The notes under the pieces were generated by a model. It was given only the letters and a program-made list of their open reading frames with translations. It had not been told where the DNA came from and made no database searches. A program made the translations under genes and the position numbers. Of a DNA stretch of 64,000 bases, positions 17,176 to 19,796 are shown piece by piece. How positions within the stretch are numbered: position 1 is the stretch's first letter; each line of letters opens with the position of its first letter. Origin of the DNA: Leisingera caerulea DSM 24564 (GTDB lineage: Bacteria > Pseudomonadota > Alphaproteobacteria > Rhodobacterales > Rhodobacteraceae); assembly GCF_000473325.1 (NCBI RefSeq), contig NZ_KI421513.1:797217-861216 (forward strand), written 5' to 3'.

Positions 17176-18261
17176 TCAGATCTCGACCTCAACCCAGCCA
17201 ATCGGATTGGAGCAGCAGGCCAGGATATACCCTGCCTCCACATCTTCTTCCGAGATGCCGCCGTTGTGGACCATATGCACATCGCCCGCGGTCTTCTTGA
17301 CCTTGCAGGTGCCGCAGATGCCGAAGGTGCAGCCCGACGGGATGTTGAGCCCCGATGCCTTGGCCACCGCCAGAACCGTGTCGGTTTCGGTGCAATTGGC
17401 AGTGACACCCGACGCGGCAAAGGTGATCTCGGCGGCTGCGGATTCCTCGGGAACCACATCGTCCAGCTCGGGCGCGTCTGCCTCGGTCTCCACCGGCGCG
17501 CCAAAGCTTTCCTGGTTGTAGTTCTCCATGTCGAAGCCCAGGCCGTTCAGCATGTCGCGCACCGCCTGCATGAACGGTTCGGGCCCGCAGCAGTAGACCT
17601 CGCGCTCCAGGTAATCACCGGCGATCAGGCCCAGCATGATCTGGTTCAGCTGCCCGCGGTAGCCGGTCCAGACCTGATAGGGATCGTCCTCCTCCACCAC
17701 AAAGTTCAGCTTGATCCCTGGCACCCGCGACGCCATGCTTTCCAGCTGCTGACGCGCGATGATCTCGCTGGGCCGCTTGGCGCAGTTGATAAAGCAGACG
17801 TCCGGCGACTGGCCGCGGTCGAACAGGTACTGGGTCATCGACAGGCTGGGCGTGATGCCAGAGCCTGCGGAGATGAACAGGAACTTGCCGTTCGGGCGCT
17901 TGGGCAGCGTGAACACGCCTGCCGGGCCGGACGCCTTGAGGAACATGCCCGGGCGCAGGTTGTCCAGCATCCAGCGGGTGCCGATGCTGTCGGCCTGCGC
18001 CTTCACTGTGACCGAAATCGACAGCGGCCGCGAGGGCGAGGAGCTGATGGTGTAGGTCCGCCAGACGGTCCCGCCCGGCACCGGCAGCTCCAGCGTCAGA
18101 AACTGGCCCGGCTGATACTTGAACCACGCGCCGGAGGGCGCGCGGAAGCTGAAGGTGGCGGTGTTCGGCGCCTCCGGCACGACCGAGACGCATTCCAGCA
18201 TCTCGTCGTCCTTCCACGCCAGGGTTTCGTCCAGCGTCTCGAAATTGGCTTGCAGTCCCAT
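17176..18261 (-). CDS. gbcB: Ferredoxin-NAD(P)H reductase component, GbcB type
   Basis: The 361-residue protein has an FAD-binding barrel (WRTYTISSSP, the RxYS-like FAD motif, near residue 70), a NAD-binding domain (FISAGSGITPSLSM near residue 128; YCCGPEPFMQAVRDML near residue 220) and a C-terminal plant-type 2Fe-2S domain. The cluster cysteines are in CTFGICGTC and LACC. This order is that of GbcB, the electron-transfer partner of the Rieske betaine monooxygenase. It passes electrons from NADH to GbcA. It begins four bases after the gbcA stop, so the two are cotranscribed and lie under the same cobalamin riboswitch. Confidence 0.9.
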   Translation of the reverse strand: MGLQANFETLDETLAWKDDEMLECVSVVPEAPNTATFSFRAPSGAWFKYQPGQFLTLELPVPGGTVWRTYTISSSPSRPLSISVTVKAQADSIGTRWMLDNLRPGMFLKASGPAGVFTLPKRPNGKFLFISAGSGITPSLSMTQYLFDRGQSPDVCFINCAKRPSEIIARQQLESMASRVPGIKLNFVVEEDDPYQVWTGYRGQLNQIMLGLIAGDYLEREVYCCGPEPFMQAVRDMLNGLGFDMENYNQESFGAPVETEADAPELDDVVPEESAAAEITFAASGVTANCTETDTVLAVAKASGLNIPSGCTFGICGTCKVKKTAGDVHMVHNGGISEEDVEAGYILACCSNPIGWVEVEI

Positions 18262-18265
18262 GCCG

Positions 18266-19501
18266 TCACTCCGCCGCGATCAGGTGGCGGCCGGTCAGCG
18301 CGCGGGTCAGGTGCTCGGCATACCAGTTGGAGAACTGGATGACACCGCTTTCCTGCACTTCCGAATAGGGGCCGGGCTCATAAGCGGGCGAGTTGATACC
18401 GCGCTGGTTGTCCTCGACCACGATGCGGTCCTCGTCGTTGGTGGCAACCCAGACTTCGGTCAGCCGCTTCAGGTCATAGTCCTGGCCCTCGACCGCGTCC
18501 TTGTGCACCAGCCATTTGGTGGTGACTTCGGTCTCAGTGGGGCTGATCGGGGTCACCCGGAACACGATGGAATGATCCGGCAGGAAGTGGTTCCAGGTGG
18601 TTGGATAGTGGAACTTCAAGAGCGTGCCCGCATCGGCGAACGGCACCCGACCCAGCTTCTTGGCAACAGCCGCCTTGCCATCCAGGGTATAGCTCTCAGC
18701 GCCTTCGTTCAGCGGCATCCGGGCCACGCGGTACTGGCCGCGCGCGTTGATCTGGAACTGCGCCGGCACGCCCGCCGCCTCGATCCGGTCGAAATGCTTC
18801 TGCAGGTGCGGCGGGGTCTCACCACCCTCAACACCAGTGACGGAGGGATCTTCGGGGAATGTCCGGCACAGCGACGGGTGGTTGCCGCCGCAGTGATAGC
18901 ACTCACGATTGTTCTCCCAGACCAGCTTCCAGTTGCCGTTCTCGATGATCGAGCTTTCATAGGCCACCTTGGCGTTGCTCAGGTCATGCGGCTCCAGATA
19001 GGGGCGGGCCACGTCTGCGAAAGCATCGAAATCCGGCGCTTCATCTGCCAGGCAGATATAGATCAGCCCGGCCAGGTCGCGGCAATGCACCGGTTTCAAC
19101 CCATGTTTGGAGGCATCAAAATCCGGCCCCATGTCGCGCGCCCACAACAGCGAGCCGTCCAGCTCATAGGTCCACTGGTGGTAGGGGCAGACCAGCTTGG
19201 GCGCGTTGCCCTTCTTCGCCTTGCACACGACCGAACCGCGGTGGCGGCAGGCGTTGTGGAAGGCGCGCACCTCGCCATCGGTGCCGCGCACGATGATAAC
19301 ATTGTAGGAACCCACCTGATGGGTCACGAAATTGCCCGCCTTCGGGATTTCGCAGGCGGGAATGGCAAACAGCCACTCACGGTAGAAGATCTGCCGCATG
19401 TCCAGATCCAGCACGCCCGGATCGGTATAAAACGCCTGTTCCAGGGAATAGTTTTTCTGACGGGCCATCAGCTTGGCCAGAATGTCGCTGTCGTGAAGCA
19501 T
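18266..19501 (-). CDS. gbcA: Rieske non-heme iron monooxygenase, glycine-betaine type (GbcA-like)
   Basis: The 411-residue protein has a Rieske 2Fe-2S domain with C85-x-H87 and C105-x-x-H108 (CRH and CPYH), and a mononuclear-iron site in NNRECYHCGGNHP (H203, H208). Many segments match Pseudomonas GbcA as I remember it, for example the CEIPKAGNF, RGINS.AY.PGPYS and WLVHKDAVEG..YD motifs. GbcA hydroxylates a methyl group of glycine betaine, releasing formaldehyde and dimethylglycine. Related enzymes act on stachydrine or carnitine, so the substrate is likely but not certain. The ATG at 19501 has GGAGAG seven bases upstream. It is the first gene after a cobalamin riboswitch (19621-19796), which is unusual for this family. 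Confidence 0.9.
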   Translation of the reverse strand: MLHDSDILAKLMARQKNYSLEQAFYTDPGVLDLDMRQIFYREWLFAIPACEIPKAGNFVTHQVGSYNVIIVRGTDGEVRAFHNACRHRGSVVCKAKKGNAPKLVCPYHQWTYELDGSLLWARDMGPDFDASKHGLKPVHCRDLAGLIYICLADEAPDFDAFADVARPYLEPHDLSNAKVAYESSIIENGNWKLVWENNRECYHCGGNHPSLCRTFPEDPSVTGVEGGETPPHLQKHFDRIEAAGVPAQFQINARGQYRVARMPLNEGAESYTLDGKAAVAKKLGRVPFADAGTLLKFHYPTTWNHFLPDHSIVFRVTPISPTETEVTTKWLVHKDAVEGQDYDLKRLTEVWVATNDEDRIVVEDNQRGINSPAYEPGPYSEVQESGVIQFSNWYAEHLTRALTGRHLIAAE

Positions 19502-19515
19502 CTGCTTCTCTCCTT

Positions 19516-19586
19516 TGCCGCATCCCCGCGGCAGGTTGGCTTGGCTGCGGGCATGGATAGAGAGATTGCAGGCCACGCGCCTGCAA
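19516..19586 (-). promoter_or_regulatory. Candidate expression platform between the cobalamin aptamer and gbcA
   Basis: Two hairpins lie between the aptamer and the gbcA start on the minus strand. The first has an 8-bp perfect stem (TTGCAGGC and GCCTGCAA, 19566-19586) with a five-base loop followed by TCTCTCTATC, a weak terminator-like tail. The second is a 6-bp stem (TGCCGC and GCGGCA, 19516-19533) that ends one base before the AAGGAGAG ribosome-binding site. Either could couple cobalamin binding to termination or to blocking of ribosome access. Confidence 0.5.
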
Positions 19587-19620
19587 CCGCCCCGCCGCCG
19601 CCCGCGGTTGACGTTTCTAG

Positions 19621-19796
19621 GGCAAGGCTGGTTTCCGGACTGTCCCGGGGCCATTCGGCGGCGGGGCCTGGCACCTTCCCGAAGCCTCTGGCCTCAGTGG
19701 TTTCTCGCCATGCCTTGCCCGGGGTCACCGTTGCGGGGGCAGTGCCGGAATTTCACCAGCTTCCCAATTCTCCGCCCCAAGGGGCGGCACCTTGCT
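19621..19796 (-). ncRNA. Cobalamin (B12) riboswitch upstream of gbcAB
   Basis: Read on the minus strand, this 176-nt region has the cobalamin riboswitch landmarks in order. P1 arms are GCAAGG and CCTTGC. Then come GGTGCC, a GC hairpin, GGGAA, GGTGAAATTCCGGCACTG, the core GCCCCCGCAACGGTGA, ACCACTGAGG, GGGAAGGTGCC, and the B12 box AGTCCGGAAACCAGCC at 19641-19626. Only cobalamin aptamers have this combination. It ends about 120 nt before the ATG of gbcA on the same strand, with no gene between, so it must control the gbcAB transcript. In known cases ligand binding turns the downstream genes off. Confidence 0.95.

Follow-up and report, generated by a model that had tools for sequence, protein, structure and literature searches.

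What does a cobalamin riboswitch do in front of an oxygenase? The question is raised by a 64,000-nucleotide stretch of the genome of Leisingera caerulea DSM 24564 (contig NZ_KI421513.1, positions 797,217 to 861,216; hereafter the window), in which a cobalamin (vitamin B12) riboswitch leads an operon for a reductase and a Rieske oxygenase, the latter, by its sequence, probably a demethylase of the betaine type. The riboswitch is real and conserved. We consider it most likely, with a probability of about 0.6, that it represses this oxygen-dependent N-demethylase operon and that the operon serves as a B12-sparing backup to a corrinoid route.

Riboswitch, expression platform and operon

A scan of the whole window with Rfam cmscan yielded a single match to the cobalamin riboswitch family RF00174, and at 105.7 bits, against a gathering score of 31.5 bits, the element belongs to the family by covariance model. 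A first-pass annotation, made from the letters alone, had placed a full cobalamin aptamer on the minus strand at 19621-19796 and had proposed a check with Infernal; the core GCCCCCGCAAC, the B12 box and GGTGAAATTCCGG are all present there, and the Rfam model finds the same strand. Its claim that the oxygenase and the reductase are the only genes which the riboswitch can control holds as well, as both lie downstream on the same strand (Table 1) and the next gene beyond the reductase (15465-17117) runs oppositely. The oxygenase starts with an ATG at 19501, which is preceded by AAAGGAGAG.

Table 1. Features of the riboswitch-led operon, with positions in the window
Feature	Position	Strand	Basis
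Cobalamin riboswitch aptamer RF00174, full length	19609..19809	-	cmscan, 105.7 bits, E 1.9e-25, model positions 1-189 of 189
Hairpin CCGC-GGGCG-GCGG, interpreted as P13/L13, which would kiss aptamer loop L5	19595..19607	-	CCGCGGGYGGCGG element
Hairpin GCCGCGGGGATGCGGC, immediately before the Shine-Dalgarno sequence	19517..19532	-	RNAalifold consensus of 30 leaders
Shine-Dalgarno-like AGGAGAG	19508..19514	-	sequence; AGGAGA-like in most of the 30 leaders
Rieske non-haem iron oxygenase alpha subunit, predicted Stc2/GbcA-like quaternary-amine N-demethylase, 411 amino acids	18266..19501	-	PF00355, PF00848
Cognate reductase, GbcB-like, 361 amino acids	17176..18261	-	PF00970, PF00175, PF00111 (FAD, NAD and 2Fe-2S domains)

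Nearly all leaders of the window type carry the element CCGCGGGYGGCGG directly after the aptamer (those of loci L032, L035 and L169 deviate), and its reading as P13/L13 rests on the kissing-loop description in the available text of PMC10653944. Across 37 leaders, 143 of 148 positions of L5 and L13 can pair, all four being complementary in 32 of the 37, and in the leader of the window L5 and L13 likewise match at four of four. The consensus fold of 30 leaders (L163, the same as L021, was removed; L153, L156 and L162 had no match to the Shine-Dalgarno pattern) contains just two helices, namely this hairpin and the one before the Shine-Dalgarno sequence, which has GCCGC...GCGGC arms and a variable loop. 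Because the arms of both hairpins are alike, a switch by exchange of strands between the two is plausible, and as no intrinsic terminator was found on the coding strand between the aptamer and the start codon, translational control is preferred. Folded alone, the leader of the window gives a weak signal (z -0.57 and -1.90). Among the five riboswitch loci of the L. caerulea genome, each taken with 1500 bases of flank, the platform element occurs in the window locus only.

With B12 plentiful, the aptamer would bind it, L5 would kiss L13 and the P13 hairpin would be held, whereupon the second hairpin could form beside the Shine-Dalgarno sequence and block translation. The reverse, a riboswitch that activates so that B12 turns the oxygenase on, has one described precedent among corrinoid riboswitches, which weighs against repression here (PMC10653944). 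However, the same paper, in the text available, calls that riboswitch the first known of its kind, the previously known ones being repressing, and the second conserved hairpin just before the Shine-Dalgarno sequence suits a repressing translational switch; activation is therefore very unlikely.

By score, the riboswitch of the window is the third of the five RF00174 matches in its genome. Three of the others lead genes with Pfam matches: in one case to CbtA, in another to CobW with CobN next, and in the third to a periplasmic binding protein with a FecCD permease next. The highest-scoring one (127 bits; G000:C7:592394-592616, equal to L099:4395-4617 on the plus strand) leads a cysteine-containing open reading frame (ORF) of 134 amino acids (L099:4727-5131) without a Pfam match.

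Conservation of the riboswitch-led gene pair

A search of homologues for an upstream aptamer, as the first-pass annotation had suggested, was rewarding. Among the best 80 named loci of our genome collection, which holds more relatives, an aptamer of 82-126 bits stands directly upstream of the oxygenase-reductase pair in 21; a regular expression found 20 of them, and cmscan confirmed all 20 and added L035. The 58 riboswitch-free loci (80 less these 21 and less L038, described below) were checked by cmscan in 26 cases and by the regular expression only in 32. The riboswitch-led cassette occurs in Leisingera, Loktanella, Sulfitobacter, Ruegeria, Phaeobacter, Shimia, Marinibacterium, Pelagimonas, Pseudophaeobacter, Marivivens, Pacificoceanicola and Roseibium, as well as in one further member of the Rhodobacteraceae. 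A relative of the reductase follows the oxygenase in all 21 loci. When 20 of them were compared with the window, the oxygenase and reductase were the only ORFs kept throughout, other recurrent ORFs either overlapping this pair or reaching at most five loci. The window oxygenase is 97-98% identical to those of Leisingera sp. JC1 and L. aquaemixtae. Since the arrangement is kept across about a dozen named genera, riboswitch control of the gene pair is very likely.

Within the family of L. caerulea, a strict leader pattern matched in 19 of 394 genomes (393 genera, the own genome included). The aptamer core is present in 18 of these 19 matches; the oxygenase comes next in 15 and a small ORF in three, and one is a chance match. 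As the pattern is strict, 15 of 394 is a lower bound for genomes in which the aptamer and platform stand immediately before the oxygenase. The three small-ORF leaders, from three genera, have the same aptamer and platform before ORFs of 92-98 amino acids (L150, 1357-1060, minus strand; L158, 1405-1127, minus strand; L160, 1647-1928, plus strand). None of these ORFs has a Pfam match, L158 and L160 share 37% identity in theirs, and the product would be a small protein that is apparently controlled by B12.

The cassette is also riboswitch-led (96-119 bits) in four of five plasmid regions examined, these being five of 154 matching plasmid records: Ruegeria TM1040, P. gallaeciensis pGal_C110, Tritonibacter mobilis and T. 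scottomollicae. In the fifth, from S. meliloti pSymA, cmscan found no riboswitch. The plasmid cassettes L168, L169, L170 and L172 show occurrence on different replicons, and all four records are typed as non-mobilizable.

The leader shares its RF00174 aptamer family with the isozyme riboswitches of metE and class Ib nrdIEF. Unlike these, it has a betaine-type oxygenase as its target and a platform element of its own. A fatty-acid desaturase has been proposed as a new isozyme target of B12 riboswitches in PMC2211319, as far as its available text goes, and the main texts of this survey and of PMC3766115 contain none of the terms 'oxygenase', 'betaine', 'demethyl' and 'Rieske'; PMC3766115 covers 15 Rhodobacterales genomes, and its additional files might list the present target. 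In the main text of PMC12478193, riboswitches are named a single time, where a work on glycine riboswitches is cited. The first-pass annotation knew of no described case, and in the open-access literature searched, supplements not covered, we likewise found no report of a cobalamin riboswitch in front of such an oxygenase.

Identity of the oxygenase and history of its riboswitch

The name gbcA, given to the oxygenase gene at first pass, is not supported. Similar to GbcAB of Pseudomonas and Chromohalobacter, the window pair consists of a Rieske oxygenase and a reductase of the quaternary-amine N-demethylating kind, but both proteins lie below the NCBIfam equivalog cut-offs, the oxygenase with 523.3 bits to the GbcA model NF058607 (cut-off 670) and the reductase with 364.7 bits to NF058606 (cut-off 500). 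The GbcA model was searched in 46 genomes (the own genome, 41 of the 50 locus genomes used for the gene-family counts below, and four gammaproteobacterial ones). Genes above its cut-off (683-825 bits) were found in four, all of them gammaproteobacteria with an additional Stc2-like copy (Salinicola, Halomonas, Marinomonas). These genes are a separate paralogue, and orthology of the window oxygenase to GbcA was rejected.

Its closest solved relatives are the Ruegeria TM1040 protein 3n0q (755.7 bits) and Stc2 of S. meliloti (3vca, 666.9 bits), to which it is about 69% identical. In a tree, 83 rows including Stc2 split from four GbcA rows at 100/100, with a long-branch warning for GbcA_L117, and Stc2 nests within the clade of the window protein. 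The segments CRHRG...CPYH and NRECYHC..NHP align with Stc2, and we take them to be the Rieske C-x-H/C-x-x-H pattern and the catalytic iron motif, respectively. Judged by sequence, the oxygenase belongs with the Stc2-like betaine demethylases. A gene on the TM1040 megaplasmid encodes 3n0q exactly (399/399 residues aligned) and is riboswitch-led (109.7 bits); the pSymA gene of S. meliloti 1021, identical to the 3vca stretch (403/403), has no riboswitch, unlike the window gene. The structure 3n0q was deposited as a 'putative aromatic-ring hydroxylating dioxygenase', and the present findings suggest that genes annotated as aromatic ring-hydroxylating dioxygenases are misnamed.

A flavoenzyme of the OYE/mycofactocin type adjoins 23 of the 59 loci without an intact riboswitch and none of the 21 that have one (Fisher p 0.0004, without correction for relatedness, the flavoenzyme matches lying below their family cut-offs). 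We would expect an OYE-type flavoenzyme, which we link to StcD, in dedicated betaine loci. This contrast makes it probable that the riboswitch group differs in function from such loci.

It is nevertheless possible that the window oxygenase demethylates proline betaine (stachydrine) or another betaine, and that its counterpart is another MttB-type enzyme (MtpB-like) and not MtgB. The identity to Stc2, the 523 of 670 bits to the GbcA model, the nesting of Stc2 and the eight MTTB paralogues of the own genome all favor this, and PMC12478193, in the text available, interprets the presence of as many as seven such genes in one genome as pointing to several substrates. The flavoenzyme contrast, uncorrected for relatedness as it is, argues against it, and so does the lack of shared pathway genes at the riboswitch cassettes, which is what later steps of a general kind would lead one to expect. 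Such a substrate would be a variant of the B12-sparing explanation, and both may hold together. In the 246-kb contig G000:C4 (L110:5369-10286), an OYE-type flavoenzyme, another Rieske oxygenase (38% identical to that of the window) and a distant MTTB gene stand in a row, which makes an oxygenative and a corrinoid-type enzyme adjacent.

Two loci appear to hold relics of the riboswitch. L038 (Primorskyibacter, about 5620-5890) has a degenerate-looking B12 box and 32.0 bits, just over the gathering score, while L045 (Granulosicoccus, a gammaproteobacterium; about 5800-5900) has no RF00174 match and, by eye, has lost the core but retains both flanks as well as the platform element. They suggest transfer together with the riboswitch, followed by riboswitch loss. 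In the tree rooted on the four GbcA rows, riboswitch-bearing sequences form a grade, from which emerges a clade of 34 rows without an intact riboswitch that includes Stc2 and L038. A single clean riboswitch clade was rejected, since six label changes are required, at least four of them forced by supported branches, again with a long-branch warning. Given the apparent relics, one riboswitch origin with later losses fits the data but is not proven. These relics might also point to a decaying aptamer without effect in L. caerulea itself; however, the score of 105.7 bits, the intact core motifs and the platform common to relatives make this most improbable.

Probable corrinoid counterpart and proposed role of the switch

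A B12-sparing role calls for a B12-dependent counterpart, and the first-pass annotation had advised a search for MttB-superfamily genes. Eight MTTB genes were found in the own genome, along with a single B12-binding_2 protein (MtgC) beside a DUF1638 gene and a homocysteine methyltransferase gene (MtgE-like) nearby; no MetH activation domain was found, and MetE was not searched for. Across the genomes compared, the MetH domain is absent from 17/22 riboswitch genomes versus 10/28 riboswitch-free alphaproteobacterial ones, which counts for the B12-sparing explanation. According to the available text of PMC12478193 (2025), the corrinoid route MtgBCD demethylates glycine betaine in a roseobacter, and in Ruegeria pomeroyi MtgC and MtgD are required for both glycine betaine demethylation and methionine synthesis. 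The presence of the MttB genes and the demonstration of this route give the B12-sparing idea a concrete counterpart, of which MtgBCD is the probable form. It differs from the window oxygenase in being corrinoid- and folate-based and in using no O2.

The aptamer, the shared platform, the operon, its conservation and the presence of the corrinoid genes are observed, whereas we infer the sign of control, the translational mechanism, the substrate and a role in backup or triage. When B12 is plentiful, betaines would be demethylated via the corrinoid route (the MttB-type MtgB, the corrinoid protein MtgC, and MtgD). When it is scarce, the operon would be expressed and the iron enzyme would take over betaine demethylation, and the single MtgC, shared with a split methionine synthase, would be left free for methionine synthesis. 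We put forward only tentatively this cofactor triage, in which B12 shortage may shift betaine demethylation to the iron- and oxygen-dependent enzyme and reserve the shared MtgC corrinoid for methionine.

Some neighbors of the cassette count for the B12-sparing explanation as well. Riboswitch-led nrdI-nrdE-nrdF genes (class Ib, B12-independent) adjoin it in L036, where the two stand back to back, and in L026, these being a Marivivens and a Shimia locus. As well, nrd genes occur in the riboswitch loci L028 and L034, and they likewise adjoin the oxygenase in L071 (Salipiger) and L078, where it has no riboswitch; in L071 the riboswitch precedes nrd and not the oxygenase. In the two Roseibium loci, L032 and L035, a gene set mtgC-DUF1638-virulence factor-putative metF2-mtgD runs divergently from the cassette (named by Pfam in L032 and by similarity in L035, the metF2 ORF having no Pfam match). 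In L051, a second cobalamin riboswitch (2846-3060, 136 bits) lies just after the reductase gene and is followed by a 48-amino-acid ORF without a Pfam match.

These neighbors bear on an alternative, raised at first pass, for which the genomic analysis gave no positive support: betaine would supply glycine for 5-aminolevulinate, besides methyl groups, and low B12 would induce the operon to feed cobalamin synthesis. Betaine does stimulate industrial B12 production (PMC8123684, in the text available). However, the later demethylation steps lie outside the riboswitch operon, the oxygenase and reductase alone are conserved beside the riboswitch, and the riboswitch operons next to the cassette in L036 and L026 are nrdIEF, which belong to the isozyme class and not to precursor supply, so that this alternative is very unlikely.

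Several observations weigh against the B12-sparing explanation. MTTB genes, compared in the genomes of 50 of the 80 loci, are present in all 21 named riboswitch genomes, and also in 22 of 28 riboswitch-free alphaproteobacterial ones. MtgC-type proteins, compared together with MetH in 55 genomes (the own genome, those 50 and four gammaproteobacterial ones), occur in 22/22 and 20/28, respectively, in 15 of another 23 genomes from riboswitch-free loci (L082 not among them) and in all 78 sampled genomes of the own family, 61 of which lack the leader pattern. The own genome has its eight MTTB genes and one MtgC, yet MtgC occurs throughout the sampled family; the MTTB and MtgC counts therefore largely reflect taxonomy, and co-occurrence with MtgC is uninformative and was dropped as evidence. 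No MTTB paralogue is a proven partner of the cassette, and MTTB5, which stands beside it in L030, was dropped as a specific partner (5/33 riboswitch genomes, 3/47 others). The leader pattern has no match in 375 of the 394 family genomes. Cobalt uptake (CbiM) near the cassette in L028 and B12/iron-type ABC genes in L042 are neighbors too, so the neighborhood does not single out an isozyme role. A second cobalamin riboswitch is found in 5 of 21 riboswitch loci, where about 0.2 would be expected at the density of the own genome, which by itself counts for the explanation; compared with 1 of 26 riboswitch-free loci, however, the difference is not significant (Fisher p 0.076). Finally, PMC12478193, in the text available, calls gbcAB limited in marine bacteria and reports that bacteria which carry GbcAB and lack MtgBCDE have MetH. 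The riboswitch cassette shows the opposite pattern, since each riboswitch genome in which MtgC was looked for has both.

If the B12-sparing explanation is true, the oxygenase would join the enzymes thought to be swapped in at B12 shortage. The riboswitch would offer a genetic handle on the link between vitamin B12 and betaine cycling in roseobacters, as well as a role, open to experiment, for the TM1040 protein whose structure has been solved as 3n0q. Should the triage hold as well, B12 supply would determine if the methyl groups of osmolytes go straight into the folate pool or are released as formaldehyde. For marine roseobacters, this would amount to a tie between the supply of a vitamin and the use of betaine-type compounds, a common ocean nutrient.

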